Below, piece after piece: positions 7,201 through 42,651 of a stretch of DNA of 64,000 nt; position 1 is the first letter of the stretch; every line of letters starts with the position of its first letter. The stretch is from Papaver somniferum. Taxonomy: Eukaryota > Streptophyta > Magnoliopsida > Ranunculales > Papaveraceae. The DNA lies in contig NW_020621936.1 in NCBI RefSeq assembly GCF_003573695.1, positions 1,116,001 to 1,180,000 on the forward strand. The letters run 5' to 3'. Position numbers and translations under genes: made by a program. The notes below the pieces were generated by a model. That model saw only the letters and a program-made list of their open reading frames with translations. It made no database searches and was not told where the DNA came from.

Positions 7201-8738
7201 ATGGACGGTAAAGTCTCTTGTAACACTTCACCAGGTTTAAAAACCAATCGTAGAAAAAGTTTTGATAAACTGGTTATTCTCCAGAAAAGGTTGGATGAAC
7301 AAATTCGGATCAATTCTGATCTTGTTGCTGAAATTGCGATACTTAAGGATTTGAAACCCATAATAAGTCCTTTGATGGATTTGAGTAACTCCAGTTGTTC
7401 CTCTTTGAAAAACTATCAAAAATCAGGTGATAAACAACGAGTAGATGTTGTTAAAACTGATTTGACTCAGAACTGCTCTGCCAAACTAAAAGGTGTTGGC
7501 CCATGTTTGTTTTGTGATTCCTCCAATCACTTTCAACATGATTGTGTGTCTTTCCAAAAGAGTCTAAAAGTTGCAAGTAATCTTCACAAGAGAACTAAAC
7601 AACTTTTTGCTTCTCTAAAAGGACATACAAAACTATCAGGAAACCCTAAACAGAATAGTACTGATAGTATGAGAGCTTTTGCTTTAAAATCAACATCACT
7701 CTTTCAATGGTTTCTTGACAGTGGATGTAGCAGACATATGACAGGTGATATCACTTGGTTCGTCTCCTCAGAGGACTATGAAGGCGGGCCTGTAACATTT
7801 GGAGATGGGAGTTGTTGCTACATAAGCAAGAAGGGGACGATCAAATTACCCGGCGTACCTAAAATCCATGATGTAGTTCACGTAAAAGGTATGACTGCAA
7901 ATCTTCTTTCTGTTAGTAAAATTTGTGACAAAGGACATCGAGTTGTCTTCAATGCAAATGGATGTGACATTGTAGACAAAACTGGAAAAGTAATTTTTCA
8001 AGGAACTCGTGGTAAAAACAACTGTTATCTTCTTGATACTCAGTTCAGCAACTGTTGTAATTTGACTAAGGTGGAATCTACACATCTTTAACATGAGCGT
8101 TTTGGTCACATCAACTACCGTCTTCTAACTAAGATCATTAACAAAGAACTTGTTAGAGGCGTTCCCAAAATCAACGCAAAGATTGAAGGTGTAGGTGGTG
8201 CCTGTCAAAAGGGTAAACAAACAAAAGTTCACCATAAATCATCTCGAGATATTCTCACTAAAGCTCCACTTGATTTAATTCATATGGATCTCTTCGGACC
8301 AATTCAACAACCCACGGTTGCTGGTAAGAAGTATGCTTTAGTTATGTTAGATGACTACACCAGATTCACTTGGGTTGCATTTCTTTCTCATAAGAATGAA
8401 ACCCTTGATGAATTCAAGATTATTGTTAAAAGAATCCAGAATGAACAAGGCCGCAAACTAAAGAAAATTAGGAGCGACCGTGGAACTGAATTCAAGGACA
8501 CTAAGGTGTTTGAATTTTGTGATGAACTGGGGATTATTCAACAATACTAACCACCCATTACTCCTCAATCTAATGGAGTTGCAAAAAGAAAGAATAGGAA
8601 CATTCAGGAAATGGCCAGGGTAATGCTCCATAACAAAAACTTACCTCTAAGGTTTTGGGGAGAAGCTGTGTTTACAACATGTTATTTGATCAACCGTGTT
8701 TACTTACGGTCTAAAATCCTAAACACTCCTTATGAGTT
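7201..8738 (+). pseudogene. gag-pol: S2 gag (partial)-protease-integrase, broken and split by GA
   Basis: The frame opens at 7201. The knuckle CLFCDSSNHFQHDC (CX2CX4HX4C) is at residues about 102-115 and the copia protease WFLDSGCSRHMTG at about 170-182 (active D-S-G). Only about 100 residues precede the knuckle, so the capsid domain is missing. A TAA at 8089-8091 sits where LWHERFGH is expected. The integrase zinc module has only one of its two cysteines (GGACQKGK). Core: first Asp in HMDLFGP (8287), second Asp in SDRGTEF (8476-8478). A second TAA at 8548-8550 follows. The catalytic Glu 35 residues after the second Asp is Lys (AAA, 8584-8586). Coding breaks off at PYEL in GA and resumes at 23798. 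Dead even before GA arrived, or decayed since. Confidence 0.9.
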
Positions 8739-9194
8739 TGTAGATGGTGGATTTTCAACAAGGGCTAAAATCATAAACTCGTGATTATACGAGCCTCTGA
8801 TCCAGCAATCATAAATGAGTATCGAGGCACGGGTCTCTCATGAATTCTCAACGGAGAGTACTTTCTCTCAGAGTACATGTAGATATGTAGTCTCACAGCC
8901 GGACAACGACATATCTCATGAATACTGAACACTTTCAGTTATTATTTCTATATAGTATCACGAGATGGAGGGCTCCTAGACAACTTGCTCTGCTAGTATA
9001 GAGCGATAACGTCTTCGGGAACAAACAACGAGTTTAACCTGACTATATAAAGGATATGACTTACCGACAAGCTCATATCGGGATAATTAATGCTCCTAGA
9101 CAGCTTGCTCTGCTAGTATAGAGACACAAAGTTAATTATTCATAATTAAGATTAATTCTGCCGTGACATTCACTACTGAATTCCCAGAATAATC

Positions 9195-9600
9195 TATTAT
9201 TGCTCCTATTCCATGGTCGAATCCACGACTGGTCCCATGGAATGGCAATAATAATTGCTCCTATTCGATGGTCGAATCCACGACTGGTCCCATGGAATGA
9301 CAATAAACAATTGTTCTGATTCTATGATCGAATCCACGGCTTGATCTCATAGAATAGAAATAACTATATTATCTCATTACTCCAATTTCATGATCGAATC
9401 CACAACTGGTCTCATAAATGGTAATAGATAAAACTCAGTTACTCCGATTCTATGGTCGAATCTACGATCCCATGGAATGGTAATGCTCACTTTATTATTC
9501 TGAATTCGTAGTCGAATCCTCAGCTGATCCTATGAATTAATAATAAACATCATATTACTCAGTTTTGTGAATTATTCTCCACTGAATTCCATAATTAGTA
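9195..9600. repeat. Degenerate palindromic tandem repeats in GA 5' LTR
   Basis: Units of about 55 bp carry ATTCCATGG, then TCGAATCCACGA, then CCATGGAAT, so each unit can fold on itself. Two or three clear units are followed by progressively degenerate ones. The 3' LTR has one clear unit fewer (from about 20700). Confidence 0.75.
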
Positions 9601-9779
9601 ATAAATAATCAACAACCGGGCGTCTGAGCTACCTCTAAGTAAGCCCCGATTTATATGGTGAAAGTGTATTCAACGACGATGCACTAACAATCACCGCACG
9701 AACGAATATTTCAAAATGCGACGAAACGATTAACCTATTGCAAAATAGGAAGAAAAATAATGAATAACCAAAATATTGA

Positions 9780-10430
9780 CCAAGGCGCCAAGGGATTGGA
9801 CTCACTGACTGTCCGACCGTGCCATGATCTACCCCACGCCAGTTTTATATTTTATCATATTTTTATTATTTTCCTTCATCTGATGAAAATCCTTTCATTT
9901 GAAAAAATCTCCTTCGTCTCAAGGAAACTCCTCGACTTCATGGTGTTTTTATAAACCCATGAAAATAATATAAAATTAAGAAAAAATAGTGTGGGGCGTG
10001 ACCATTGGCCAACCGGCCATGCCTTGGTCCCAGCCGGCCCCACACCTTATGGTTCCTCATTATTTTTTTATTATTATTATTATTATTTCTCCGATTTCAT
10101 GAAAAAACTCCTTGATTTCATGGTATTTTGCAAAAATTAGGAAATAAATAATATAAAATTATGAAAACTTGTGGGACCGGGCCCTAGCCGGCCGGCCATG
10201 CCTCCCACGGACCCACACGCCCTTGTTTTTATTATTTCAATATTTTTGCTTCCTTGAACTCATGAAAACTCCTTCACTTCAGGGAAACTCCCTAAATTCA
10301 TCAAAACTCTTTAAATCCATGATATTTTCATAAAATCATGAAAAATATTATAAAATTAAGGGAAAGGCACCACGGGACCGTGGTCACGACTGGCCGACCA
10401 TACCTTGGTTTCACGGTCCCACGCCTCCTC
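9780..10430. repeat. GC-rich CCGGCC-containing subrepeats in GA 5' LTR
   Basis: Three to four diverged units of roughly 190-200 bp. Each has an AT-rich half with CTTGATTTCATGG-like sequence and a GC-rich half such as TAGCCGGCCGGCCATGCC with GGTCCCACA. The 3' LTR (21240-22050) has one extra unit near 21655-21800, which largely explains its greater length. Confidence 0.7.
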
Positions 10431-11476
10431 ATTCCTTTATTTTATAATTATTCTCCATCATCTCATGGTGTTTTCCTCAGTTTCAGCGAAACCCTAATTT
10501 TGGCATATTTTCTCGAATGGACGCTCAACTGCACGTCAGAAAATATCAAAATTCTCAGAACTGAGACACGGACGTCTTGGGGACACGAGCATGTTATCTT
10601 GATCGTCCAAGATTGGCTCTTTGGCTTACAGAAGCCGGTCCCATCGATTTTCACAGTTTTGACCTAATTTGCACAATTGCACGTATTAGGTCCAAAACTC
10701 TTCCGAACACTTTGGATTTTTATGAAGTGATCGTCATTCGATCCTGTGACCACCCAGGGCCGGTTTCATGACCCTTTGGTCGGTCCCTCACCTCTTCATA
10801 ATTAATTAGGTTTTTTCACCTAAGGCTCAGACGAGCATTTTTGAATAAATGATTAAACCAGCATTTGATCATCTCTTCACCAACTCTTCAGGAGTTCTTT
10901 GTATTTGCTCACGTGAGCATTTGGACACTACATGGTTGATCCACGGTCCCATGTAGTCGGTCCCTCCTTCGTCCCATGGTTAAAATTCTGACGAACCATG
11001 AATTGATCATCAATTGATCAAATTAGGGTTTCTGAATCCAAGGATCATCATTCCAGATTCCAACCTTAATAATTTTACGACGACCTCATGGTCATTAATT
11101 TTATTAATTATGCTCGGTTCAACGACCAGTATGCTAATTAATATTTTTGGTACATTGCCAATAATCCATCAGATGAGCAATACATGCTCAGACGATCAAA
11201 TATTCAACAATTTATCACATGAGCAACACTTGCTCAGATGATAAATATTTGCTCAAACCAAGGAATATTGGTTCAACAATCAATATTCAACGATCCATCG
11301 AATGAGCAATACTTGCTCACTTCATCGTAAGAACTATACCTCTGTCTCATGACATGTTCAACTCATGAGTTTCAGAACATCATGTTCAATTCAGCAACAA
11401 CATGGACTCATCGTCCCATCAAACCACGAAGTCATCAATTGACTAACATACCACGAGACGTCAATCGTGTCACTTT

Positions 11477-11719
11477 GGGGGATATCACTTAGGGTTTTGG
11501 TCTGGCGGTTTATGACACGTGTGTTCAAACACACGATGGAATGTGAGCAAGTCGTGCAATCAGTTGAAGGAATTCACGAGGTAGTGGGTGGAAAATTGAC
11601 CAAGTCTCCACACGTTGAGCAACTGGTTTCAAACACGATCTCCACTTCCCCACTCATTGATTCCATCAACTGTCACACTTCATGGGGTCATGGTGTCTAA
11701 AATTCCATCAATATAAATA
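11477..11719 (+). promoter_or_regulatory. GA LTR promoter block: conserved box, G-box, TATA
   Basis: Contains GGGGATATCACTTAGGG and GTTTTGGTCTGGCGG (11477-11509), a G-box CACGTG at 11516-11521 and TATAAATA at 11712-11719. The first block recurs nearly unchanged in every gypsy LTR of the window, on both strands. G-boxes are known plant bZIP/bHLH sites. That this is the promoter is inference from its conservation and position about 430 bp before the LTR end. Confidence 0.6.
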
Positions 11720-12146
11720 AGTCTCTGAATCATGATTGAATCATCAGCATCAACAGCACCATCAATCTCACATCTCATCGACAACACGAGATCATCAACT
11801 CATCAATTGAGCAACTACTCTCAATTGAGCAATTTCAATCATTCAGAGCTTATCATATTCAGAATTCACACACCCACAATCTTTGATTACCATTGATTCC
11901 ACACATTTCCCAGCTTCCCTCCTACAGATCAACCCATCCTCTCTTGTGACCGAATTTACTCTGGAATGGTCATTGCCTTGATTTAGGCCGGAGTACTATA
12001 AATTGGTCTCTCGAATCTAAAGCACCCCCTTTACAGCGGTGCATCTGTGTGAGGTTTAAAATTTCGCTCGGTTCGAGGAGTCTCCTCCGTACGGCCATCT
12101 TCTAAATTCCTTAAAAACCAGCAAATCGTTTTTCCCATCTACAGAT

Positions 12147-12164
12147 TGGCGACCACAGTGGGAG
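12147..12164 (+). other. GA primer binding site
   Basis: TGGCGACCACAGTGGGAG begins three bases after the LTR. It resembles the TGGCGACTCCACTGGGG type of PBS described for Ogre elements (arginine tRNA). Confidence 0.7.
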
Positions 12165-12200
12165 ATCATTCTATCGGTTGGAATCTCACAATTTCACAAG

Positions 12201-14327
12201 ATGGTTGATCTCAGGTCAGGTTCAGTTACGAATCCTAACACAAACCATGCTAGCACTAGCAACAACAACAATCAGAATATCCCGGAGACAATTCCGACCT
12301 CCAACACTGATGGTGGTGACATTACTCCTCCTCACGTCGAAGGTAATCCACTGTCCGGACGACACCCTGAAGAAGTCAGAGGAGATCCACCACCTACCAT
12401 TGCTGATCTTATCAAAGCACAGGAGACTCTTGCAAAGAATCAGACTGACATGGCTGCTGCACAGAAGGAGCTGTGTAATTATCTCAAAACTCTTACTGAC
12501 AAGATGTCAGAGAAAACTCAAGTGAAGGGAAAGGAGAAGGATAAATCCTCAGACGACGATCCTGAAGTAATTCCAATCCATACAGTAGAAGACGACGAAG
12601 TTCGCAAAACTGCTGCAGACAACTCATCAGCGAAGGGATCATCGAACTTCATTACTCGCAAGGATCTGGAGCACCTCTTAGAGAATCGTGTAAAATACAA
12701 GACATCGCATGACCATCGTCATCAACCTCCTTATCCTGCCGCTACGCAGAGGATTCCACTCCCCAAAGGTTACGTTTCTCCAACTTCACCTTGTATGATG
12801 GAACTGGCAATGCTCGGGAACATGTCTCTCGTTTTCTCGAAGCCCTGGGAGAACATGAACATAATCATGTCGTTCGTCTCAAGGAATTCTCAAATCTCTG
12901 AAAGGCAGGCATACACCTGGTATAACAACATCACACCAGGGACTATCAACAATTGGGGAGAAATGGTTAACGCATTCTACAGGAAATACTTCTTCGTGTC
13001 AGAACAAGTCACCCTCTCCGACCTTGGAAGAATGTTTCAGAGGGTCAGTGAAAATCCCAATGATTATGTGAAAAGGTTCAGAGTCCAAGCCCTGGATTGT
13101 CATGACCCAAACGTCACGGAGCAACAATGGTGGACTTGTGCATCAATGGCATGCTCCCGGTCTACAGGGCCTTGCTGGAGAACTTCGATTCCAGACTTTC
13201 TCAGAGCTTCACGAAGCTGCGAAGAGGTCGGCAACCACTGCACCCTCTTTTGGAAAGAAAAGTCTACAAAGACTGAGGATTCAAAAGACACTCGAGGAAG
13301 CAGGCGTTTGATCAACAAGCAGTACAACCTGCAACCTTCAACAAATGCTGTCGCAGAAGGGAGTAAGCGAAAAGCAGAACCACAGCACAAGCAGACTTCC
13401 TCCACCCCTTCAAAGGCACACAAGAAGGAGAATTCGAAAGTCCCTCCTCAGCATACGGAAGATCCAGAAGCACCTGATTTTCCCTGTTCAATGGAAGAAG
13501 TTAATGAACTACTCGATGCCTGGATCCAAGATGGTGCAATCAAATTGCCTTATGTCAAGAAGGAACCAACTGAAGAAGCCATGGAAAATCCTCGGTATTG
13601 CCGCTTCCATAGATACGTCAGCCATCCCACAAGTGATTGCAAAATTTTGAAGCGCATATTCAAAGAAAAGGTCGAATCAGGAGAGCTCAACCTGGGGACT
13701 GAGGGAGTACACAAAAAACCCCTCCCAGTCCGAACTTTTACCATCTCTGAACCTCCTGTCAAGGAAGCGGTCCAATCTCTGATCGAACATGTCTGCGAGT
13801 TGTTGTATCTTTCGAAAGCTCAAAGGAAAGACATGTTTGCTGCACTGAACCACATCGTGTCCGGAAAACGCCTGCTGATCCAAGAGACCACCACCGAACC
13901 TTCAGCCACCGACAAAGAAATGTATGACTGGGGACTGCTCACCACAGTGCACATTAAAGGAAATGAGTTCAAGAGGGCGTTCGTCGATGTTGGTACCGCT
14001 GTCAACATCATCCCTTTGAAAACTCTCAGAGCTGCTGGTATTACTCGACAGGAAGCCACCCACGCTCCCATAGCAATCAGGGACCACGAAGGAATCTCCA
14101 GAGACGCATACGGCTTCATCACTCTCAAAGTTACGGAAAGATTGATCTGCACTGAGGCCAAGTTTTTCATAATCCGGGAAGACCCTGGATACGACATGGT
14201 CCTTGGAAGAACTTGGATTCATGCTGGAAGGATAACGATGCCTTCAACACATCCTGTCATCGACAAGGATTCCGAGTCGAAGACGAAGCAGAGGACGCAC
14301 CACCGTTTGAGCATCTGGAAGAAGTAA
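12201..14327 (+). CDS. gag: GA gag-protease polyprotein, 708 codons, with out-of-frame middle
   Basis: Starts at the ATG 40 bases after the PBS (MVDLRSGSVTNPNTN). Residues about 200-300 look like a retrotransposon gag domain (AYTWYNNITPGTINNWGEM, NAFYRKYFF, NPNDYVKRFRVQAL). From about 13130 to 13310 the gag-like sequence is found in the two other frames (VDLCINGMLPVYRALLENF, then SELHEAAKRS), so two or three indels have scrambled this part while leaving the long frame open. Residues about 470-485 have CRFHRYVSHPTSDC, the zinc-knuckle variant of Tat-type gags. The aspartic protease lies near residues 575-680 with RAFVDVGTAVNII (D-V-G instead of D-S/T-G) and YDMVLGRTWIH. The frame shifts just after the protease. 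Probably a pseudogene despite its length. Confidence 0.85.
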   Translation: MVDLRSGSVTNPNTNHASTSNNNNQNIPETIPTSNTDGGDITPPHVEGNPLSGRHPEEVRGDPPPTIADLIKAQETLAKNQTDMAAAQKELCNYLKTLTDKMSEKTQVKGKEKDKSSDDDPEVIPIHTVEDDEVRKTAADNSSAKGSSNFITRKDLEHLLENRVKYKTSHDHRHQPPYPAATQRIPLPKGYVSPTSPCMMELAMLGNMSLVFSKPWENMNIIMSFVSRNSQISERQAYTWYNNITPGTINNWGEMVNAFYRKYFFVSEQVTLSDLGRMFQRVSENPNDYVKRFRVQALDCHDPNVTEQQWWTCASMACSRSTGPCWRTSIPDFLRASRSCEEVGNHCTLFWKEKSTKTEDSKDTRGSRRLINKQYNLQPSTNAVAEGSKRKAEPQHKQTSSTPSKAHKKENSKVPPQHTEDPEAPDFPCSMEEVNELLDAWIQDGAIKLPYVKKEPTEEAMENPRYCRFHRYVSHPTSDCKILKRIFKEKVESGELNLGTEGVHKKPLPVRTFTISEPPVKEAVQSLIEHVCELLYLSKAQRKDMFAALNHIVSGKRLLIQETTTEPSATDKEMYDWGLLTTVHIKGNEFKRAFVDVGTAVNIIPLKTLRAAGITRQEATHAPIAIRDHEGISRDAYGFITLKVTERLICTEAKFFIIREDPGYDMVLGRTWIHAGRITMPSTHPVIDKDSESKTKQRTHHRLSIWKK

Positions 14328-14919
14328 AAACTCTGATGGGACTTACGCAGGAACTTGGAGAAAATCCGCACACCTTTGTCAGAAGGTTTCGAGCTCAGGC
14401 AAGTCTTATTCCCTCATGCTCCAATATTACCAATGTTCAGATACGCTACTATGGTCCAGGGACTTCTCCCATGAACAATTTAGCAGTCATCAAAAGCTAC
14501 GAGTGGGTAACTTCACCTCAGCAATATTACACCCAATGGTTGGGTTCAGAACTTCTTCAAATCGGTCACTCCATCGAGAGGTTTATTGTTGAAGACCTGG
14601 CTAAGCATGATCAACACTATGCTGGATACTCTCTTCCGCGCGAGTGTCCATATGTGCCACAATCGTGGAATTCCGTCAAACAGGGAATTCCGAATCAGCG
14701 GAAGATATTCAAGGCACGATCGACCAAGCCTAACAAGTTTCATGAAGGGACCTGGTTCTCAAAGCAGTTCAGCGCGGTCTTCATTCTACAAGGAACTCCA
14801 ATTGGGAAGGACCATTCATGGTCGCTAAGTCCGTGGCCGGAGGATACTACAAATTGATCAACACAGATGACAGAACCCTGCCAGTAATTCACGAAAATTG
14901 GCTCAAGGCGTTTATCTGA
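14328..14919 (+). pseudogene. pol: GA post-protease segment and integrase C-terminal tail
   Basis: Soon after the protease the sequence reads LEEVKTLMGLTQELGENPHT (frame 14213-14857), a family-specific stretch also present, decayed, in GB at 32200-32500. At 14800-14919, in another frame, the sequence NWEGPFMVAKSVAGGYYKL, then VIHENWLKAF and a stop match the very end of Tat/Ogre integrases. Reverse transcriptase, RNase H and the integrase core that should lie between are missing, so an ancestor lost about 3 kb of pol. Confidence 0.75.
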
Positions 14920-15198
14920 AATTATTGGACATTTGAGGTATTGGGCGTTCGAAGCATTCATGGCGTTTGGATTTAACATTTAGGATTTTCTTTCATTTGT
15001 ATTTCAATTCCTCCAAAACGTTTGCAATACTTGCAATTAGTATTTGAATTCAGCAATTTATCAAAATTCAGTTCATATTTCGTAAAAGAAATCTCTATCA
15101 AATCTACAAGAAAATCCTTAACCATCAGTCAATCCAAAACCATCTAAATATCAAAACCCAAGTATAAACCTCACATCTCTCAGAAGTTCAGAAGTTCA
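14920..15198. other. GA spacer after pol tail
   Basis: AT-rich, low-complexity spacer between the pol stop and the end of the antisense gene. No reading frame or motif noted. Confidence 0.5.
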
Positions 15199-15951
15199 AG
15201 AGATAATCAAAGGAAATCAGCAAGAAAAGGCTTTCGCTCATCAGCATCCTTCAAGATTTGCAAAGCCGCCCTCTCCTTGTTCAACTCCTCGGTCAGCTTG
15301 GAAATCTTGTCCTCCTTCTCCTTCACCATCATTGGGAAAGGGTATGTTCTTCTCACATGAATCCTTGATAACGTTTATTTGCTTGCGAAGCCATTTCACG
15401 TTGAGGCCAAGTCTCTCTGAATTCTCCAAGTTAAACTCCCAATCAAAGAGTATATCTGGAGTCACAGTATTCCTAGGTCTGGCACGCATATCACTCACGA
15501 CACGCAAGATAACGCCTACTTGCATGGTTAAAGCATAAGCACGCCCAGGATTCCTGTCAACGATCATGTGGCCAAACTTCTTCCATATTGTCTCGTACAA
15601 GCGTGCATATCCAATGGGAACGTTGAATCCACCGATCAGTTCATGATATGGGAGTGAAGTGTCAAATGGAGGATCAAAAGCAACTCCTGCAGTTGGATAT
15701 TCATACACTATTATACGGTTCTCAGTCACTGGAGCGGCTTCCACAACCAAAGCAATAATTCCTTCGGTATTCTCCGCTGCTGTCTCGGTTTCTTCTATCA
15801 CTGAGGCAACAACCATCTGGGTTTCCATAACATCAGTAGCGACCTTCTCATGGCCTTGAAGTGCAGGGATGGTTGTCTCTTCATCAATAACTCCAGAATG
15901 GTTAGAGTTATCATCGTTGGCTCCAGTATCCTCAACTTCGGTATTTAGCAC
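15199..15951 (-). pseudogene. Antisense PMD gene, C-terminal part (acidic/coiled coil)
   Basis: Minus-strand frame of 236 codons from 15951. It has an acidic Thr/Glu/Val-rich beginning (EETETAAENTEGIIALVVEA) and then a folded-looking part with DPPFDTSLPYHELIGGF and LNVKWLRKQINVIKDSCEK. Near 15325 the meaningful frame changes: the neighbouring frame continues with VKEKEDKISKLTEELNKERA, a clear coiled coil, to a stop at about 15199. A frameshift has therefore replaced the true C-terminus. It is probably the downstream exon of the gene whose PMD lies at 17157-18854; the junction is not provable from sequence alone. Confidence 0.55.
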
Positions 15952-17156
15952 CTAATACGAAGATTACATGAGGTTAGAGTCACGAATCCAAAGGATATTA
16001 TGAAACACAGTATACCATCAAGGCAACATCATCAAGGTTCATCATAATACATTCAAGGCACGAGCAAATAACATAAAAGTCATGAAAACACGTTTTACGA
16101 TGAGTCCGTCTGAAGAAACTGAACTCTGCTCTGTACTAAGAGACGAACTGGGAGCAATCTACAAGGAATTTGAGGATGGGTCATATACCATTCTCTTCGT
16201 ATGGATGTCCTCTACGACATGTCAAAATTTCATGACAATCCGATGAACGAGCAAGTAGATGTGGCCAAAATATCAAGTGATGCGCAATCTGAAAAAGTCC
16301 TGGAAGTCTCCTGGAAGTTTACTATTTCGCCTTTTTCAGGACCTGAACGTGCTCAAAACTTAAAAATTTCTTTTAAAGCTTGGAAATTTTCCGGGCTTGA
16401 ATTTGCACATGCAGATCATCAAAATCCGATTCCGGACGAAGATTCTACGGCATTTTTACTAAAAAGCTGGGTTCCGAATTTTCTGACGACGAAATTTGAC
16501 TAAGTTTTCATATACGCACATGGATTCACATTCATTCATTCAAAAATCAGCACTTTTATCTTCTATGAAGAAGGTACAGATATGCTTACTTGAGGGTATC
16601 CAAAGCATTCAAGGAGTTGGGATTGTCCGTGTCAACGATGGGAGGATCATTACTTCATTCTCCAAATCCTTGCACCGCCTGTGTCTCTATTCTCAAGAGA
16701 CGGTCGAGTGCAGCACTTCCATTCCATAACGACATCCTCCTGGACATATTCTCAAACAATTAGCTTTCATCAATAAAGCATCATAATCGAACATGTGAAG
16801 AGATACTTACAGCTTCTCTTCATCGCTCAAGTCAGGAATTGCTTGCTCAAAGGCGGAGAACCGAAGACCATCAATACTTGATGGAGCAAAATCTGCAACG
16901 GAATAACAATATCGGTTTCAGATCCTAATAATATGGGCGAGAAAGAGGAGGAAAATATTGGAAACTCACCAAAGCACCAACTGGGGACTTTACGGTATTA
17001 GGTAACAGCTTATAACCTTTATGCCTGCCTTCTCCGCCATGAATAACCGCCTCAGTCTCTGAGAAATCTACACCGATTCGAGGTCGTATATTACGACCGT
17101 CCTGTGGTGAAATCCAGTAATATAATCAGAATACAGTTCTTATAATTTCGTGAAGA
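15952..17156 (-). other. Intron-like region of antisense gene in GA
   Basis: AT-rich region between the two antisense coding parts. No supported frame on the minus strand. 16140-16500 is conserved in GB at 34540-34920 (shared GGATGGGTCATATACC and TCTTCGTATGGATG blocks), so it belongs to the family. The plus-strand frame at 16201-16503 falls in this block but is not kept open in GB. Confidence 0.45.
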
Positions 17157-17899
17157 TTATATGAAGAAACATACCTGAGAGCATCCTGGAGACGACTTTC
17201 GTTTATCACCAGAAAGATACTTCAATCTTGGTCGACTGGAAATCATCTCAGCCGAAGGAAGATCCTTGAATGGAGGTCTGGGAAATCTTACAAAGCCACG
17301 CAAACGCCCAAGTTGCTGATCCCAGAATTCTACATAACCTGGGGTTACATAGGCGAATCTATCAGAACCAGGAAACCAGTAGCTACTCCCTTCCACGTGA
17401 GTATGATCCAAATGAGTCCTGAGTTGCTCAACTGATGGCTTCCTTCTCCGTATGGTTGGAACACACTGATCCATACCCATTTGTCGAGCTGCTCTATCAA
17501 TATTATACTCCTCCACTGAAAGCTCTCCAAACGTGGCTGATAGCAAATGACCAGGGGTGCAACTCAACATGAAAGATCTTTCGCCATCACTCAGATGCGC
17601 ACCAGACGTCAAACTCGTGCTTTCTCCAGTATTGAAAGTCATCGGCTGAGAAACATAATCAGGGACTGACACCCACGGGCGAAAATTGAACTCAGATTCT
17701 TCATCTAACACATCAATGAAGCGTATTTTAGAACGAGGTGCTTTGTGGACCAACGCATGATCCTAGCATTATCTTTCTCAGGGAAAGTATGGCGCGCATC
17801 AGTATTCGGTCCTTGCAGAACATTACGTGGAGTAGGTGCATAATTCTTAAAGTGCTCCCACATCAAAGCTTGAAGAAATCGTGTTGGCATAACACTCAA
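17157..17899 (-). pseudogene. Antisense PMD gene, part after the domain core, two frameshifts
   Basis: Continuation of the PMD protein in two further frames. Frame 17899-17705 carries TRFLQALMWEHFKNYAPTPR, resembling the FLQxWxWERF region after the PMD core. Frame 17753-17157 carries KIRFIDVLDEESEFNFRPW, SSYWFPGSDRFAYVTPGYVE and a basic end. Frame changes near 17890 and 17740 break the protein. The last frame ends in CSQVCFFI at 17157, with GTATG just inside it that could be a splice donor. Confidence 0.65.
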
Positions 17900-18854
17900 T
17901 CTTCATAGAGCCGTTCGACACACTGGAGTCTATAATCAAGGAGTCCAGGTTGTAATACAAGGAGCCTAAGAATAAACTACCTATCGGAAGTTGCTCACCT
18001 TGAGCCATCTTAATAGCAAAGGGAATCACAAAAGGCTTCAACAAGTTTCCACTGTCTTCAAAAACGTCTCTGGACAACCATAAACATAAGAAAGCAGCAA
18101 TGGGTAACATACCGTCGATGGGTTTATCAGAAACCTCGTCTTTGGGCCACCAGTGTGTCAACCAGGAAGCATAGCATCCTTTACTACCAGCCTTATTCGC
18201 TTTCTCCATTGCAGCTGTCAAGACATGAGAAACGGCGGTCTCCTCATCTGAAAGATCCCCAGGAAGATTGCCCGTGATTGGGAGATGCATCAGAGCCGCC
18301 ACGTCTTCCAAGGTAATGGTAAACTCTCCCCATCTACATATGAAAGTGTGAGTGGGAATGCACCAGCGAGCAAACAGAGCCACAATACCACTTGCGTCAT
18401 GATAAATGAACAACTCTCCAGAAGCTTGAATAGCTCTCGTCACCTGCGCCTGGTCGAGCATAGTCCTCACATGAGGAAAACCCAACATATGCCTCGCCCA
18501 GCCGGCAAATTTCTCCAAAGGTCGTCGAGAAAGCTTAAACTCTATGATTGATGAGGTGAAGATCCCTCGTTCAAGACAAAATCGAATCACTGTCTTAGGA
18601 GTCACCAATTTCTTCTGAGTAACAGTTCTGGGATTTATCAAAAGACGATACACTGGGGATTTCAAATGTTGCTCAGCTCCTGGAATATCTTTTTCAAAGA
18701 ATGCATCATCTATGTTCGGGACATTCTTAATCCCAGGGATTTCGTCTTCGTCTCCCCCAACGGAAGTTTCATCCATGCATGTCTCATCTCTGGAGATACC
18801 ATCATCAACGCACATCTCTTCCCTCGAGGCGTCGTCAGCTTGGGAATTGGTCAT
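17847..18854 (-). pseudogene. Plant mobile domain (PMD) protein, antisense in GA
   Basis: Minus-strand frame of 335 codons from ATG 18854 (MTNSQADDASREEMCVDDG). The N-terminus is acidic with repeated DDG/DET motifs (residues 7-40). Residues about 85-300 fit the plant mobile domain, the aminotransferase-like domain of Arabidopsis MAIN and MAIL1: GWARHMLGFPHVR (118-130), RWCIPTHTFICRWGEFTI then TLEDVAALMHLPITG (163-195), which is the family's GEFTxTLEDVxxLxxLP signature, and LPIAAFLCLWLSRDVF. MAIN/MAIL1 are nuclear proteins that work with the phosphatase PP7L in gene expression and transposon silencing. The frame breaks near 17890. Position antisense, downstream of pol, matches antisense ORFs reported for Tat-lineage elements. 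Confidence 0.85.
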
Positions 18855-18943
18855 CTTTGCTGAGTAGCTGAAAAGGTTCTACTTCAGTATGCCGTCCAGA
18901 TATAAATCAAGGAAATACAAGCAAAAATGGTAACTCTTAACTC

Positions 18944-18955
18944 TTACCTTTTATA
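18944..18955 (-). promoter_or_regulatory. TATA-like site just upstream of antisense PMD ORF
   Basis: The minus strand has GTATAAAAGG about 95 bp before the PMD ATG. GB keeps ATTATAAATAGG at the equivalent place (about 35800). Possible promoter of the antisense gene, or a chance AT-rich match inside a 5' intron. Confidence 0.35.
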
Positions 18956-19797
18956 CTTCCACTAACAATAGTGATAGTAATGCTAGAGTTAACACCTCAA
19001 AATCGTTCGTCTCTTCGAAAACTGCAAAGAACGAAACTTTATTTAATTTCCGAAACTGATTTTTCATGAAATCACGACACAATTTTCATAATGTGAACAT
19101 TCACACAACTGACCTATGAAGTTTATAACAATAAAATATTTCATCATAAATATATTGTCTATCTTCGAAGGTTCCTCAAAAACACGTTTTGATTTTTCAA
19201 AACAACAATTAATGCAACTTGCATACATAAATTCTCAAGGATTTTATCTAATGAAAAAAATTCATGCAAATAAAATATACCATCATATTTTGCACAATAT
19301 ATGTCACGGCTGCATATAAAAAAAACTATTTTTCCTTCGTATCGTCGTTATTTGTCTTTAAAACGAAGGTTTATTTCAAAATACTGTGAAAGCTCACATC
19401 TCATACATATGATAAAGTTTTGTATTTACATGAAATCATAAGCAAAATTTTATCACTGGACACAAGTTCATCATATGAATTTTCCTTCGAGTCGTCGTAA
19501 TTTGTCTTTAAAACGAAGGATTATTTCGATTTCGTGAAAATTTACTCCTTTTATGATAAAACCTTACACATGAAAGCTCATACACTAAGTTTTATCACTG
19601 GACCTAGTTCATATATAAAAAAAAATCTCTCCTAAATCAGGGATTATAGTTAGTTTTCAAAACTAACGATCGAACGAACATACGTTTTCAAAAACGAGGG
19701 TTTTTCATAAAACTCACACTAATATACACACATGTATATTCATCATGATCAAAACATGAACAACTCATGATACAACATCAGCAAAAAAAAAAAACGC
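18956..19797. repeat. AT-rich region with repeated CCTTCG/CGAAGG hairpins
   Basis: Two copies (about 19328-19375 and 19481-19528, roughly 153 bp apart) of an arm TTTCCTTCG, a loop with GTCTTTAAAA, and an arm CGAAGG. Around them are repeated TTTTATCACTGGAC segments. A weaker version is at 36330-36350 in GB. No coding sequence seen. It may be an intron of the antisense gene. Confidence 0.5.
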
Positions 19798-19950
19798 ACG
19801 CACCTGGTCGGCCGGAAGTTGGCCGGCGGCAACCGACTGGCGGCGACGGCGGCGATCATGGCGGCGAACTTCAAGCTGCTGGCGTGAAGGAGGAGAGGAT
19901 GGAGAGCTGGACGTGGAAAATTAAAAAAAAAGGATTAATTCCTTTTATAC
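19798..19950 (-). other. GC-rich candidate first exon and promoter of antisense gene
   Basis: A GC-rich island in AT-rich surroundings. On the minus strand: TATAAAAGG at 19941-19949, about 85 bp of leader, ATG at 19859 reading MIAAVAASRLPPANFRP, and a donor-like CCAG|GTGCGT at 19804/19803. A possible acceptor CTACTCAG lies just before the PMD ATG (about 18862). This looks like the 5' exon of a captured host gene. The reading frame across the proposed intron is untested, and the exon could equally be non-coding leader. Confidence 0.4.
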
Positions 19951-20237
19951 AATTTTTTATTTCCAAAACCTAATTTTCCAAGGATTTCCTTATTGGGCCC
20001 GGCCCGCCCTCACGACCAGGTCTCGTCCAAACCAGCGGTTCAACACCAATTTATGCTCATCAAACGACTCCAATCATGACATTGAAGCCTTCATCAAGTC
20101 GTGGTTTGCTCATGCTTCTAAATCCGGTAACGTTCAACTTACGACTAAGTTCAATTACTGGTATTTATTTATGGCCGGAAAATCACCATTTAATGCTGAC
20201 TGAGGAACACGCTTTCCTCAGTAAGCAGGGGACTTAA
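19951..20237. other. GA 3' end with polypurine tract
   Basis: Non-coding. The last bases, AAGCAGGGGACTTAA just before 20238, form a short polypurine tract at the position needed to prime plus-strand synthesis at the 3' LTR. Confidence 0.55.
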
Positions 20238-23200
20238 TGTAGATGGTGGATTTTCGACAAGGGCTAAAATCGTAAACTCATAATTATACGAAGCTCTGAT
20301 CCAGCAATCAGACGTGAGTATTGAGACACGGGTCTCTCATCGAATTCTCAACGGAGAGTACTTTCTCTCGAGTACATGTAGATATGTAGTCTCACGACTG
20401 GACAACGACATATCTCATGAATACTGAACACTTTCAGTGATTATTTCTATATAGTATTACGAGATGGACGGCTCCTAGACAGCTTGCTCTGCTAGTATAG
20501 AGCGATAACGTCTTCAGAAACAAACAACGAGTTTACCCTGACTATATAAAGGATATGACTTACCGACAAGCTCATATCGGGATAATTAATGCTCCTAGAC
20601 AGCTTGCTCTGCTAGTATAGATCCACAAAGTTAATTATTCCTAATTAAGATTAATTCTGCCGTGACATTCACTACTGAATTCTCAGAATAATCGATTATT
20701 GCTCCTATTCCATGGTCGAATCCACGACTGGTCCCATGGAATGGAAATAAACAATTGTTCTGATTCTATAATTGAATCCACGTCTTTATCTCATAGAATA
20801 GCAATAACTATATTATCTCATTACTCCGATTTCATGATCGAATCCACAACTGGTCTCATAAATGGTAATAGATAAAACTCAATTACTCCGATTCTATGGT
20901 CGAATCTACGATCCCATGGAATGGTAATGCTCACTTTATTATTCTGAATTCGTAGTCGAATCCTCAGCTGATCCTATGAATTAATAATAAACATCTTATT
21001 ACTCAGTTTTGTGAATTATTCTCCACTGAATTCCACAATTAGTAATAAATAATCAACAACCGGGCGTCTGAGCTACCTCTAAGTAAGCCCCGATTTATAT
21101 GGTGAAAGTGTATTCAACGACGATGCACTAACAGTCACCGCACGAACGAGTATTTCAAAATACGACGAAACGATTAACCTATTGCAAAATAGGAAGAAAA
21201 ATAATGAATAATCAAAATATTGACCAAGGCGCCAAGGGATTGGACTCACTGACTGGACGGCCGTGCCATGACCTATCCCACGCCAGTTTTATATTTTTAT
21301 CATATTTTTATTATTTTCCTTCATCTGATGAAAATCCTTTCATTTGAACAAATCTCCTTCGTCTCGAGGAAACTCCTCGACTTCATGGTATTTTTATAAA
21401 CCCATGAAAATAATATAAAATTAAGGAAAAATAGTGTGGGGCGTGACCATTGGCCAACCGGCCATGCCTTGGTCCCAACCGGCCCCACACCTTATGGTTC
21501 CTCATTATTTATTTTTTTTATTATTATTATTTCTCTGATTTCATGAAAAAATCCTTGATTTCATGGTATTTTGCAAAAATTAGGAAATAAATAATATAAA
21601 ATTATAAAAACTCGTGGGACCGGGCCCTAGCCGGCCGACCATGCCCTAGCCGGTCCCACACGCTCCTTTATTTTATTATTTTTTATTTTATTTTCCTTGA
21701 ATTTATCAAATTCCTTGATTTCATGGTATTTCTCTCAAATTAGGAAAAATTCCCTCAAATCATGAAAAATACATTAGAAAAATATATAAAATTATGAAAA
21801 CTTGTGGGACCAGGCCCTAGCCGGCCGGCCATGCCTCCCACGGCCCCACACGCCCTTGTTTTTATTATTTTAATATTTTTTCTTCCTTGAACTCATAAAA
21901 ACTCCTTCACTTCAGGGAAACTCCCTAAATTCATCAAAACTCTTTAAATCCATGATATTTTCATAAAATCATGAAAAATATTAAAATTAAGGGAAAGGCA
22001 CCACGTGACCGTGGTCACGACTGGCCGACCATACCTTGGTTTCACGGTCCCACGCCTCCTCATTCCTTTATTTTATAATTATTCTCCATCATCTCATGGT
22101 GTTTTCCTCAGTTTCAGCGAAACCCTAATTTTGGCATATTTTCTCGAATGGACGCTCAACTGCACGTCAGAAAATATCAAAATTCTCAGAACTGAGACAC
22201 GGACGTATTGGGTACACGAGAATTTTATCTTGATCGACCAAGATTGGCTCTTTGGCTTACAGAAGCCGGTCCCATCGATTTTCACAGTTTTGACCTAATT
22301 TGCACAATTGCACGTATTAGGTCCAAAACTCTTCCGAACACTTTGGATTTTCATGAAGTGATCGTCGTTCGATCCCGTGACCACCCAGGGGCGGTTTCAT
22401 GACCCCTTGGTCGGTCCCTCACCTCTTCATAATTAATTAGGTTTTTTCACCTAAGGCTCAGACGAGCATTTTTGAATAAATGATTAAACCAGCATTTGAT
22501 CATCTCTTCACCAACTCTTCAGGAGTTCTTTGTATTTTATCACGTGAGCATGTGGACACTACATGGTTGATCCACGGTCCTATGTAGTCGCTCCCTCCTT
22601 CGTCCCATGGTTAAAATTCTGACGAACCATGAATTGATCATCAATTGATCAAATTAGGGTTTCTGAATCCAAGGATCATCATTCCAGATTCCAACCTTAA
22701 TAATTTTACGACGACCTCATGGTCATTAATTTTATTAATTATGCTCGGTTCAACGACCAGTATGCTAATTAATATTTTTGGTACGTTGCCAATAATCCAT
22801 CAGATGAGCAACACATGCTCAGACGATCAAATATTCAACAATTCATCACATGAGCAACACTTTCTCAAATGATAAATATTTTCTCAAACCAAGGAATATT
22901 GGTTCAAGAATCAATATTCAACGATCCATCGAATGAGCAATACTTGCTCACTTCATCGTAAGAACTATACCTCTGTCTCATGACATGTTCAACTCATGAG
23001 TTTCAGAGCATCATGTTCAACTCAGCAACTACATGGACTCATCGCCCCATCAAACCACTAAGTCATCAATTGAATAACATACCACGAGACGTCAATCATA
23101 TCACTTTGGGGGATATCACTTAGGGTTTTGGTCTGGCGGTCTACGACACGTGTGTTCAAACACACGATAGAATGTGAGCAAGTCGTGCAATCAGTTGAAG

Positions 23201-23792
23201 GAATTCACGAGGTAGTGGGTGGAAAATTGACCAAGTCTCCACACGTTGAGCAACTGGTTTCAAACACGATCTCCACTTCCCCACTCCTTGATTTCATCAA
23301 CTGTCACACTTCATGGGGTCATGGTGTCTAAAATTACAGCAATATAAATAAGTCTCTGAATCATGATTGAATCATCAGCATCAACAGTACCATCAATCTC
23401 ACGTCTCATCGACAACACGAGATCATCAACTCATAAATTGAGCAACTACTCTCAATTGAGCAATTTCAATCATTCAGAGCTTATCATATTCAGAATTCAC
23501 ACACCCACAATCTTTGATTACCATTGATTCCACATATTTCCCAACTTCCCTTCTACAGATCAACCCATCCTCTCTTGTGACCTAATTTACCCTGGAACGG
23601 TCATTGTCTTGATTTAGGCCGGAGTACTACAGATTGATCTCTCGAATCTAAAGCACCCCCTTTGCAGCGGTGCATCTGTGTGAGGTTTAACATTTCACTC
23701 GGTTCGAGGAGTCTCCTCCGTACGGTCGTCTCCTCCGTACGGTCGTTTCCTCAATTCCTTAAAAACCAGCAAATCGTTTTTCCCCATCTACA
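20238..23792 (+). repeat. GA 3' LTR
   Basis: 3555 bp, TGTAGATGGTGG to CCCATCTACA, matching the 5' LTR throughout. It has one more GC-rich subrepeat and one fewer palindromic unit. G-box at 23147-23152, TATAAATA at 23343-23350. Its last 60 bases repeat CGGTCGTCTCCTCCGTA once more than the 5' LTR. Confidence 0.93.
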
Positions 23793-23797
23793 GAGTT

Positions 23798-26132: not shown

Positions 26133-26696
26133 TGTTGATGGTGGATTTTCAACAAAGGACAAAACCGTAAAATCATGATACTGCATGTTTCTGAGTTGGC
26201 TTCAGGCGTGTGACGATTCATATTTTACGAAGACATGATGAATATGTTTCCTGAAAGGCCTCCACTAGCTGAGCGTTCAGTGCCACGCATTTCATCATGT
26301 CCTCTATGTAGAATAACGTAATTGGGCGGTTCTCCGTAAGATTGAGAGCAACAACGCTTTCAGGACGCCGGTGACACTCACTGTTCCTTGACTACATGAG
26401 AGAGACCCGCCTCTATATAGAAGAACGATTGGGCGGTTCTCCGTAGATTGAGAGCAACAACGCCTTCATGACGTCGGTGACACTCACTATTCCCTGACTA
26501 TGTAGAGAGCCCGTGTATAGATCCAGGCGGTTCTCCGTAGATTGAGAGCAACAACGTCTTCAGGACTTCGGAAACTCGCTGTCTTCTGACTATACACCTT
26601 TAAAATGGGTATGACGCTTTAACCGGATAATATCTCTTCTGTAATAGATTAATTCTGTCGTGACATTTACCACTGAATTCCCAGAATGATCTATTA

Positions 26697-26985
26697 TTGC
26701 TCCTATTCCATGGTCGAATCCACGACCTGATCCCATGGAATGGCAACAACAATTGCTCCTATTCCATGGTCGAATCCACGGCATGATACCATGGAATGGC
26801 AATAACAATTGATCCTATTCCATGGTCGAAACCACGGCCTGATCCCATGGAATGGCAATAACAATTGCTCTTATTCCATGGTCGAATCCACGACCTGATC
26901 CCAAGGAATGGCAATAACAATTGCTCCTATTCCATAGTCGAATCTACGGTCTGATCCCATGGAATGGCAATAAACAATTGTATCA
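26697..26985. repeat. Five 56-bp palindromic tandem units, GB 5' LTR
   Basis: Each unit holds ATTCCATGG, a 19-base middle starting TCGAATCCACG, and CCATGGAAT. Units 3-5 are diverged in the loop or one arm. The 3' LTR has eight units. Confidence 0.85.
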
Positions 26986-27539
26986 TCTCATTATTCCGAT
27001 TTCATGATCGAATTCACGATCCCATGGAATGGTAATATTCGACTCTATTATTCCGAATTCATGGTCGAATCCACGGCTGATCCGATGGATTGATAATAAA
27101 CTAATACTCATTTTTATTACTCAGTTTCATGAATCATTCTCCACTGAATTTCATAAATTAGTAATAAATACTCAACAATCGGGCATCTGGACCATCACCG
27201 TGTAAGCCCCACAAAAATGGTGCAAGTGTACTCGACAATGATGCACGACTGAGCACCCGGATGCACAAACGAGCATTCAAAAAATATGGACAAATGAGGA
27301 ATCCTACGAAAAACAGGAGAAAAACAACAAAAAATAATAAAATAATAAGAAGCCCCTAGGGGCCGGGCCCACCAGCCGGCAGGCCGTGCCCATTCCTCTT
27401 CCATTATTTTTCCCTATTTTGTTATTTTCATGAACTCATGAAAACTCCTTGATTTTAGCAACTTTCCTTGTTTGAGCAAAACTAAACTCATGAACTCTCC
27501 ATAAATTCATGGATTCATGAAAAATAATATTATAAAATA

Positions 27540-29215: not shown

Positions 29216-30108
29216 TTGCACGAATAATCCATGTATATTCAGTAACTCATCAATATTCAACAACTCGTCGAATTTACAATATTTGCTCAGACGAGCAACA
29301 TTAATACTCATGAATCACTGAGCATTCGTCAATCATGCTCGATTCAACAAAACTTAGACTCACTGTCTAATCAGTCAATAACTGGCTAATTAAAACACGT
29401 CTGCCTTGCAGACTCCACGATTCGTGAGACATCAATCACGTCACAAAAGGGGGGATATCACTTAGGGTTTTGGTCTGGCGGTCTACGGCACATGGATTCA
29501 TCCACAACGAGAAATGTGCGTAAGTCGTGCAAACGGTTGAAGGAGTTAGCAAAGTAGTTGGTGCACGATCAGTCAAGTCTCCACACGACATGGAACTGAC
29601 TTTAACACGATCTCCCACTTTCCCACTCTTTCACTCAAGAAACTGTCACACTTACAGGGATCAATGTGTCCACAACTCTGACAATATAAATAAGTCTCTG
29701 AATCCATGATTGAAAACATCATCAGCATTCATCCACACAGAATTTATCGAGTAACTACTCTCAAGAATTCATCGATCCACCAGAACTTATTCGAACTTAT
29801 CAGTTCACCAATTATTGCAGAAACCTTTAACACATCCATAATCCTTGATCATCATTGATCCCACACAATTCTCATCTTCCCTCCTACAAACCAACCCATC
29901 TCCCTCTTAGCGACCGAATTGACTATGGAATGGCCATTGACTTGGTTTAGGCCGGAGTCCTACAGATTGATCTCTCGAATCTAAGCACTCCCTTTGGAGT
30001 GCATCTGTGTGAGGTTCAACAGTTTGCTCGGTCGAGGAGTCTCGATAACACGCTCTATTCTTCACTTTCCTAAAAAACCAGCAAATCGTTTTTTGCCCAT
30101 CTACAGAT

Positions 30109-30126
30109 TGGCGACCACAGTGGGAG
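30109..30126 (+). other. GB primer binding site
   Basis: TGGCGACCACAGTGGGAG just after the 5' LTR, identical to the GA PBS. Confidence 0.7.
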
Positions 30127-30163
30127 ATTAATCTCTCGGTTGCAATCTCTAATTTTTCACAAA

Positions 30164-31382
30164 ATGGTTGGTCTTAGGTCTACTTCTGAAACTCCAGATT
30201 CTCACCAGAGTCTTTCAAATGACGATATTCCTCATGCTCATTCGAACGACTTTGGTAACGTTCGTCATCATTACTTCACTACTCCTTTTCTCTCTATTGA
30301 CGCATTCGAGGTAGAGATCCCGTCATTGACGAAATTGGCACAAAGGAAAAGAGCTTTAGCCAGGAACATCGATCGATTGAAAGAAGCTATCGATAACCTG
30401 TTCGCCTACATGGTGGAATTGACAAGGCTCTTGGGAGCAGAAATGGCGGAACATCCAAACCCTACTCCCGATGCTTCTCAAATCAACAGTTTCACAACAT
30501 ATGAAAAGCCGGTGGAACAAGAAGTCACACATTTGATCGAGAATCTATGTGAACTCCTGCATTTCTCCAGAGATCAGCGCGCGGACACGTTTGTGGCACC
30601 TAACAAAATATCATCTGACGCGCGAATAGTTCCTTCATCTCCGGTGGTTGAACAAGTGTCCATGGTATCTGAACTTTCGATCAACAACATCACCTTCACT
30701 GAGGAAGACCGAATGGCGGAGGAAGGACATAACCGAGCCCTGTTCGTAACTGCTTCCATTAAGAACTCCGAATTCAGGAGAGTTCTCAAAAATATGGGTG
30801 CTTCCACAAATCTTGTCACCATGAAGACTCTCAAGGATGCCAAAGTTCCGCAAAGCAAGATCGTTCATCATCCCATATTGATGATGGGTTTTGAAGGAAG
30901 CCAGAGCCACACATACGGGTATGTCTATGTCGATCTGAAGGTATGGCCAATTCAATCCACTGTCAAGTTTCATGTGATTGAGAAAGACCCTGATTATCAC
31001 ATGATACTCGGGGAGACCGTGTATTCATGACAATAAAGTTGTTCCTTCGACGTACCATCAATGTATGAAAGCTTTGGTCAACAACAAAATTGTCCGCATC
31101 CCAGCCTCAGTGTCTCCTTACGCTACGGTTTATGATGCTGAGTTCTTAGAACCTCCAAAGAGCATCCCCCAACCTCCGAGCAAGATCTGCAGTACTCCGC
31201 TCCCAAATTGGAAATTCATTGAGAAGGCTGACAAATCATCATCAACAGATGCTAAATCCTCCAAACCATCTACTACACCACTCAAGCGTCGTCAGAGTCA
31301 AGGTACGACTCCTAAAAAGTCCAACTTTATTACTAATTATGATGCAGAAGGGAGAGTCATTTATCTCCGTCGTAAGGATTAA
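30164..31382 (+). pseudogene. gag: GB gag-protease, capsid and knuckle deleted
   Basis: ATG 30164 (MVGLRSTSETPDSHQ) opens a frame to 31030. After an N-terminal helix (RALARNIDRLKEAIDNLFAY) the sequence jumps to VEQEVTHLIENLCELLHFSR, which in GA lies after the zinc knuckle, so the gag core and knuckle are deleted. The protease has RVLKNMGASTNLVTMKTL: the catalytic Asp is Asn. It ends near DPDYHMILG. A frameshift near 31010 moves the continuation to frame 31065-31382 (VNNKIVRIPASVSPYATVYD, then a Lys/Ser-rich linker ending RVIYLRRKD). Confidence 0.8.
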
Positions 31383-41045: not shown

Positions 41046-42651
41046 ATGTCGAACTGGTATTACAAGAGCCAATACAACGAATAGCCGACTGAGTTTCAAA
41101 ATGGACGTTACTACTTTGACAATAGTGTGAATAGTGGTTGGGAACATCAACCTTTTCAAGGTTATGGCTCATACCTTGATGAGCCCAATTACTATCCACA
41201 CACGCACCCATACGAGCAAAATTCTTATATTTCTCCTTTAGAAGAGTCCCTCAGGAAATTAGAGGAGTCGACACGTAAGTTAGCTGAGATGAATAACTTA
41301 GTTTATGACGAAACAGAACTTTCTATAGAGGAATCCTTCAAGCTGATAGCTGAGACGAACGAAAGAATTGCTCGAAATAATCTTAATTTCCAATACAGTG
41401 ATTCCAATAGTACCCTTGAAAATGAGAATAGTTATTTGCATAATTAAGATGATGAGGATAAAATTGGTAACACTACTTGTTTAGATGAGGTTCAACCATT
41501 TTCATGTTATTATGATGATTATGATGTGGATAATGTTGATGAAGAATTTGAAATGTGTAGGCATAGTGATCAGGAATTTGTTACTCCAAATGAACTTTAT
41601 GATGATAGTGTTATTTCTGGTTCAGATCCCGATAATTTTAATGATTATTCACCTATTCAAAAGGACGAGGATTTGATTAGAGATACCACTTTTAGATGAT
41701 GTAGTATTTCCTTTTGATTACGAAGTAGATAATGGTTTAGAGGAACGAGTTTATTCTGAGAATACCGTTTTAAAGTCTAGCGATTTAGAAACAATGGTCT
41801 TAGACGAAGAAAATGAACTCATACAACTATTAAATATGAGTGAGGATGCGTCACTTGAGTATAACCTAGAAGAAGCAATTGACTATTTTCAGGATTCCAA
41901 CGATCTAGAAATTGAGAAAATTGTAGCTAGTCTATCTAGAGATACCCAAAAATATAAGTTTGGGGGTGATTATCATTCTCCATGTGCTTTAACTCTTTCA
42001 AAGGTCCCTCACTTAGGACTCGACATATGTGCCTCAACCATTTTGCAAGATTATCTTCATACACGTTTTCCTGAACCTAGTGATGTCCATAAGGAAGTTC
42101 AGTTGTTAGAAACCCATCCTATGGTTGATGAGGTTAGACCAGGCTATGATACCAAGATCGACCTTGTTTTCCCACCAAATATTTTTCAACCAATTGTGGG
42201 AACCTATAGTTTTCAGATGTGTCAATTATTAAGTTTTGAGACTAAACCTAATTTTAAGATATTAGGGTCGACACATTTATTTAAGGAAGTCCACCACCCT
42301 TATTGTGGTCGATTATGTGAGTCAAAACTAATTGACTTAGAGGATCCTAAATTATTCAGGTTATTATTATGTGCTTCTAAGTTTTTACTCGAGTTTTTCC
42401 AGACTCTAATACCTGAACCGGATCTTAGCTTTGAGGAATTCCAGCGCATGAAAATATTTTATCTAGACCCTTTCCTAGAGCCTGAACCTGAACCACAGTT
42501 AGATGTAGTTGTCTTAAACAGGAAACTAGACAAGGGTGCGCTTTATTTGTCAATTTTCTTGGCATGTTGCAGATTCCTTTTACTTGTGATAGCTCTATTT
42601 GGTTTTGATGACCCACAGATATTTCGGCTATTACTTTATGATACAAGGTGA
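41046..42651 (+). pseudogene. LC orphan acidic protein, broken
   Basis: Starts MSNWYYKSQYNE and meets a TAG at 41082. In the same frame it continues 41127-41447 (SGWEHQPFQGYGSY, coiled-coil-like LEESLRKLEESTRKLAE, ARNNLNFQYS) to a TAA where LC2 has Gln. After a 2-base loss near 41690 the frame 41794-42651 follows: acidic LLNMSEDASLEYNLEEA, EIEKIVASLSRDTQ, HLGLDICASTI, LFRLLLCASKFLLEF, EPEPEPQ, then a hydrophobic segment YLSIFLACCRFLLLVIALF and a conserved DDPQIFRLLLYD end. No domain recognised. LC2 has different lesions, so the ancestor coded for about 550-600 residues. It occupies the gag position; it could be a diverged gag or an env-like protein. Confidence 0.7.

Follow-up and report, generated by a model that had tools for sequence, protein, structure and literature searches.

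The 64,000-nucleotide stretch of Papaver somniferum DNA analysed here (contig NW_020621936.1, positions 1,116,001 to 1,180,000 of the forward strand; the window) contains a pol-less long terminal repeat (LTR) retrotransposon which carries, antisense to its own gag-protease frame, a gene for a plant mobile domain (PMD) protein. This gene has seven exons and a conserved TATA box and has been kept by selection in a lineage devoid of pol, a combination which is new as far as the literature was searched. The PMD is described in PMC8616336 as a domain of unknown function, found in host silencing factors and in transposons, and counter-silencing has already been proposed in print for PMDs borne by Mutator-like elements (MULEs; PMC5418596) and for PMDs of transposable elements (TEs; PMC8616336). 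We consider that the best explanation for the gene described here, with a probability of about 45%, is that its product would bind non-coding sites of its own family and would relieve or resist silencing.

A Pfam profile search placed PF10536 on 17847–18878 of the minus strand at 2.5e-27 (96.4 bits against a cut-off of 34.9), and the remaining part of the profile on 17157–17762 of the same strand at 1.7e-4, under the cut-off. The frame runs opposite to the gag-protease open reading frame (ORF; 12060–14327, plus strand), which has a Retrotrans_gag match, and lies between two LTRs with a target site duplication. An earlier reading of the window made from the letters alone (the sequence-only reading) had proposed a gypsy element with a PMD gene on its antisense strand, and was right on both counts. 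The gene consists of the following parts, in window positions.

19942–19949, minus strand: TATA box, TATAAAAG in 11 of the 11 copies covering the site
19804–19915, minus strand: exon 1, GC-rich (0.68) non-coding leader with a putative 5' end, donor GT and an unshared ATG
18948–19021, minus strand: exon 1b, non-coding leader, acceptor and donor each in 19 of 20 rows, no ATG in 20 of 20
17175–18867, minus strand: exon 2, with ATG at 18854 and the PMD, frameshifted in the window copy
16970–17101, minus strand: exon 3
16811–16892, minus strand: exon 4
16590–16739, minus strand: exon 5
15207–15951, minus strand: exon 6, C-terminal region with coiled-coil-like tail, its end placed as in relatives; in the window copy the frame runs out of register and stops at 15241

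The model is based on an alignment of the window with 19 copies (20 rows), mostly near relatives, in which the independent rows are L021, with 80% identity to the window in exon 2, and L025, L032 and L036, with 75–76%; these four keep all 11 splice sites checked. The donors of exons 2 to 5 are GT in 20 of 20 rows each, the acceptors of exons 2, 3, 4 and 5 are AG in 18, 19, 18 and 20 of the 20 rows, and the exon 6 acceptor is seen in all nine rows spanning that site. The translation start, ATG 18854, is common to all 20 rows, and adding the lengths of the five coding exons gives a protein of about 930 amino acids. The upstream TATA box of the sequence-only reading is borne out by its presence in every copy covering the site, and the GC-rich ATG exon with a donor survives in part: the GC content is 68%, versus 30% for 18868–19803, and the donor GT is found in all 19 aligned rows with letters there (the gapped L002 reads CAGGC), but the ATG at 19859 occurs at the aligned position in the window only (20 rows, several gapped), and exon 1, which evolves fast and with indels, is therefore read as a leader. 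A second TATA-like site, near 18955, was rejected, being the end of exon 1b followed by the splice donor; three copies (L025, L032 and L036) lack this TATA and L021 has it in altered form, yet all of them keep the donor.

The window copy itself is decayed and does not encode the full protein: the reading frame of exon 2 shifts near codon 334, and the end of exon 6 is in a different frame from that in L039, L040 and L053. The coiled-coil tail proposed in the sequence-only reading can be read in frame, as a coiled-coil-like end, in these three copies. In a search of 2.715 Gb of genome, in which the best 118 of 14,127 first-look candidates were scored, the matched part was free of stops in 80 of the 118 PMD matches (window included), and 22 had a stop-free frame of at least 575 amino acids, so that members with long open frames do exist. 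Among the 20 aligned rows, exons 2 to 5 as joined read without a stop in L019 and L031, with one acceptor changed in each (exon 1b in L019, exon 2 in L031). Eighteen of 38 PMD loci, which belong to other PMD types, did not match the window gene at the DNA level and were excluded from the gene-model alignment. The family of non-autonomous elements with an antisense PMD gene is large, and the window holds one decayed copy of it.

Selection on this gene is seen when families are compared. For exon 2, the ratio of nonsynonymous to synonymous divergence (dN/dS) was 0.13 between the window and L021 (dN 0.118, dS 0.93), 0.09 between the window and L032 (dN 0.138, dS 1.54) and 0.14 between L004 and L062 (dN 0.285, dS 2.06), while the pair L032–L062 was saturated and gave no ratio. 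Exon 6 gave 0.36 for window–L032 at a dS of 1.1, with wrong-frame controls of 0.74 and 1.18, and on the sense strand the same pair gave 0.07 for gag and 0.17 for gagC-protease. As the between-family ratios are low in both gag and PMD, both genes have been kept while pol is gone. Within the family, the exon 2 ratios of 14 copies against the window lie between 0.14 and 0.97, based on few changes, and a fifteenth copy, L002, is unchanged. With 118 scored PMD matches out of 14,127 candidates and between-family ratios far below 1, it is confirmed that the observation goes beyond chance. None of three findings that would count against the sequence-only reading (no profile match, no intact frame in the family, dN/dS near 1) was made, and its interpretation is partly supported overall.

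Divergence is unevenly spread along some copies. Between L021 and the window, identity is 92% in intron 1 and 91% in intron 5, and dS is 0.13 in exon 6 against 0.93 in exon 2; L022 instead diverges from the window in a block at about 16950–16600. The plain explanation for such mosaic copies is recombination between subfamilies.

The sense strand of the element is laid out as follows.

8739–23792, plus strand: pol-less LTR retrotransposon, delimited by its LTR ends, GAGTT on both sides and the distance between its LTRs
8739–12143, plus strand: 5' LTR, 3405 bases, adjoining GAGTT at 8734–8738
12060–14327, plus strand: gag-protease stop-to-stop ORF, Retrotrans_gag at 1.9e-5, barely over the cut-off; aspartyl protease weak, under the cut-off
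14330–14920, plus strand: remainder after pol deletion, a second gag-like module and an apparent integrase C-terminal tail
20238–23792, plus strand: 3' LTR, 3555 bases, adjoining GAGTT at 23793–23797

The module and the tail in 14330–14920 were both named by eye, the latter being what we take to be the C-terminus of an integrase. The gag/capsid-like module itself (14340–14700, between protease and integrase tail) is also found in L052, L053, L068 and L069, and its ENPHTFVRRFRAQ resembles ENPNDYVKRFRVQ of gag. The element has no reverse transcriptase (RT), RNase H (RH) or integrase (INT) core. The pol-less junction is colinear with the window in 13 of 16 other PMD-bearing copies (69.6–97.8% identity), and the loss of pol is therefore not damage to one copy. 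No pol-bearing PMD carrier was found among the 16 copies checked at the junction, of which three were uninformative: L055, in which the gag-like module and the tail are present, passes into other DNA inside the module; upstream of 14980, L070 cannot be matched, and the 10 scanned of its 16 ORFs of at least 70 amino acids lack a pol domain; and L071 lies within the PMD and LTR parts of an element. Because the colinear copies leave no room for pol, the family has the gene content of Papaver Retand Group I, that is, gag and protease (the latter a weak match under the cut-off) without RT, RH and INT. These elements of the same genus are described as non-autonomous, encoding mainly GAG and PROT (PMC12582370), and the words 'mobile domain' are absent from the main text of that paper. 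An extra reverse-oriented ORF between the pol remnant and the 3' LTR is a mark of the Tat lineage (Ogre/Retand), and we infer that the window element is of Tat/Retand type.

The LTRs start with TGTAGATGG and end with CCATCTACA, and differ by a Kimura two-parameter distance of 0.0356, with 10 indels. At a substitution rate of 8.1e-9, as applied to Papaver (PMC12582370), the window copy is about 2.2 My old. It was inserted into a copia frame: copia-type ORFs flank the element, the one upstream with a Pol_BBD match in the Pfam profile search, and the frame continues past the right LTR.

In a tree of 42 PMD rows, a 100/100 split separates 19 rows from 23 and sets the window family apart from MAIN-like PMDs, across a very long branch for which the tree tool warns of long branches meeting. 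The group of the window family also includes eight Papaver proteins (P0003, P0004, P0006, P0007, P0011, P0012, P0014 and P0018) and six Cannabis proteins. According to Ikeda et al. (PMC5418596), PMD-A1 and PMD-A2 are Gypsy-only clades and PMD-C comprises host MAIN/MAIL with MULE captures, whether the host or the element side came first being left undecided there; according to Neumann et al. (PMC6317226), 57% of Ogre elements carry PF10536. Given the tree split and the published Gypsy clades, the PMD gene is most likely an old component of such elements and not a fresh capture. The sequence-only reading had called the gene captured; a recent capture from the host is not supported, given the position of the window PMD across the 100/100 branch from MAIN-like proteins. 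The window family shares with Ogre PMD elements and the PMD-A clades an extra Gypsy ORF in a clade apart from MAIN-like PMDs, its likeness to PMD-A being one of carrier (a Gypsy element) and of separation from MAIN-like PMDs, and to this extent it is an ordinary PMD-bearing Gypsy element of the published kind, in one broken copy; it differs in its pol-less carrier and in the TATA box, leader exons, introns and selection documented here. The TRP28 ORFs of Retand are likewise antisense accessory genes between pol and the 3' LTR, with suspected DNA binding (PMC11963269), but encode another domain, and 'PMD' and 'plant mobile' occur 0 times in the main text of that paper.

Among the Papaver PMD matches, P0021, P0023, P0077 and P0080 (named TFIID subunit 11-like, SDHAF2-like, ABCF4-like and ddx56) are short high-identity stretches, and these proteins are likely annotation chimeras with element fragments. 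The MAIN-like Papaver protein P0029 has an RT_RNaseH_2 match after its PMD (3.9e-6, under the cut-off), hinting that L009-type PMDs may be element-borne too.

Two predicted PMD folds match VANC21 of VANDAL21 in its DNA-bound structure (9lnj), so that the PMD is predicted to have the DNA-binding fold of VANC21; a MAIN-LIKE 1-like protein has the same predicted fold as the element PMD. VANC21 is likewise a TE-encoded accessory protein with an intron-bearing gene (PMC5735166, PMC10398659), but its carriers (VANDALs, MULEs) are DNA transposons whereas the window carrier is an LTR retrotransposon. No solved structure was found by sequence similarity to the PMD at E up to 1, and a viral fold library gave no match above a probability of 0.07 among the best 50 of 58. 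In PMC8616336, VANC21 and TE PMDs are listed next to each other as ways of countering silencing. The literature searched contained no report connecting PMD with VANC through homology or structure, and none joining the plant mobile domain with AlphaFold, and the predicted link appears new to that extent; the paper behind 9lnj may already report the likeness.

A candidate target of the protein is TCATGAAA (or TTTCATGA), a lead only. It occurs 11 times in the 3' LTR (LTR3) and introns 1 and 5 together, where 100 dinucleotide shuffles never gave more than 7 for any 8-mer with more than two letters, once in the gag-to-tail region (12200–14930) and never in the parts of the PMD exons that were counted. 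The window as a whole has 43 sites, of which 18 belong to this element; of the remaining 25, 24 fall in repeats of a second, related element (27.0–28.1, 36.4–38.7 and 45.7 kb).

This second LTR element occupies 26100–47300 and has a gag-like ORF (30074–31030) without a gag profile match. Its LTR-type repeats lie at 26.1–29.6 kb and 36.7–47.3 kb, apparently interrupted by another insertion, and contain 56-bp tandem arrays (26584–27051 and 37206–37897). The acidic ORFs at 41677–42651 and 61343–62812 are alike by eye; the first has no Pfam match.

Gene structure, conservation, selection and the pol-less backbone are observations, and the explanation that we favour builds on them as follows. The antisense orientation would let the gene retain its introns through the RNA stage; the PMD would be a DNA-binding domain of the VANC21 fold, and the protein would bind to sites that lie in non-coding DNA of its own family, namely in the LTR and the introns. 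Binding would relieve or resist silencing, so that genomic RNA would be made, which could then be copied by the enzymes of autonomous relatives. A wider claim, which we find possible although rather doubtful, is that PMDs and VANC form one superfamily of sequence-specific DNA binders and that the family PMD is an anti-silencing factor reading TCATGAAA/TTTCATGA in LTRs and introns, with coding exons swapped between subfamilies by recombination, and that this helps to explain how a non-autonomous lineage went on spreading across a synonymous distance of about 1 or more.

Several points weigh against our explanation. Transcription, DNA binding, its targets and anti-silencing are what we infer, and a shared fold by itself shows no function; the PMD fold would fit pro- and anti-silencing alike, as it is also predicted for the MAIN-like PMDs of the host, which act in silencing. 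The P0004 model is moderately confident (mean pLDDT, the predicted local distance difference test, of 67) and is that of a relative of the window protein, and of five P0057 models the one used for the search reached 70.5, the others 49–54. DUF1985 (PF09331), which characterises VANC proteins, weakly matches 5 of 40 PMD proteins, all MAIN-like and all under the cut-off, and none of the gypsy-type PMDs scanned, including P0001, which covers 91% of the window ORF at 98% identity. The 30 bases around the TATA box (19960–19931) have an identity of 0.67 with the 75% family (L042), no higher than neighbouring DNA. Synonymous distances are simple counting estimates, some near saturation, the window–L002 ratio in gagC-protease is 0.93, and some close pairs have exon 2 ratios near or above 1 (such as 1.15 for L025–L032); high ratios within the family would be expected if copies decay after insertion. 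As for the motif, it was chosen after looking, occurs in excess elsewhere in the window too (25 sites for an expected 5.4, mostly in LTR regions of the related element) and may be accounted for by LTR tandem repeats alone.

Other explanations must be set against this one. The element PMD could be a decoy or competitor for the host proteins MAIN, MAIL1 and PP7L, an idea put forward in the sequence-only reading, displacing host PMDs or titrating PP7L instead of binding its own sites. MAIN and MAIL1 (PMD-C), with PP7L, also have the plant mobile domain and are host genes acting in silencing (PMC5418596, PMC7156037), and host-type and element PMDs have one predicted fold; however, the window PMD is on the opposite side of the 100/100 branch, whose great length makes a shared partner surface not obvious, and the predicted fold points to VANC-type DNA binding over simple competition with the host complex. 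We regard a decoy as unlikely. Less probable still is that the PMD is under selection in autonomous relatives with pol, and that pol-less copies only regain the gene repeatedly by recombination. The mosaic L021, whose introns 1 and 5 are about 92% identical to those of the window but whose exon 2 is distant, would suit such exchange, and an autonomous Retand (Group III) exists in Papaver (PMC12582370), but the colinear pol-less copies reach down to about 70% identity, none of the informative ones has pol, and gag-protease in pol-less copies is itself under purifying selection.

It is equally improbable that the antisense unit, by comparison with the TRP28 ORFs of Retand, acts via RNA or regulates sense expression rather than silencing, in which case the PMD would be an ordinary factor in transcription or packaging. 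Antisense accessory ORFs were reported in all recently active Retand clusters studied in PMC11963269, yet a purely RNA role disagrees with exon 2 ratios of 0.09–0.14, which show that the protein matters. As to a neutral passenger gene fragment, the broken window copy and the close pairs with ratios near 1 are what it would predict, but between-family ratios near 0.1, conserved splice sites and TATA box and long open frames make it very improbable.

The match of two predicted PMD folds to DNA-bound VANC21 provides a testable hypothesis for host and transposon PMDs alike, namely sequence-specific DNA binding. If this is true, one fold family would include both a silencing factor of the host and an anti-silencing factor of a transposon. 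Moreover, the pol-less family suggests that an accessory gene can be maintained by selection where its carriers are unable to copy themselves.

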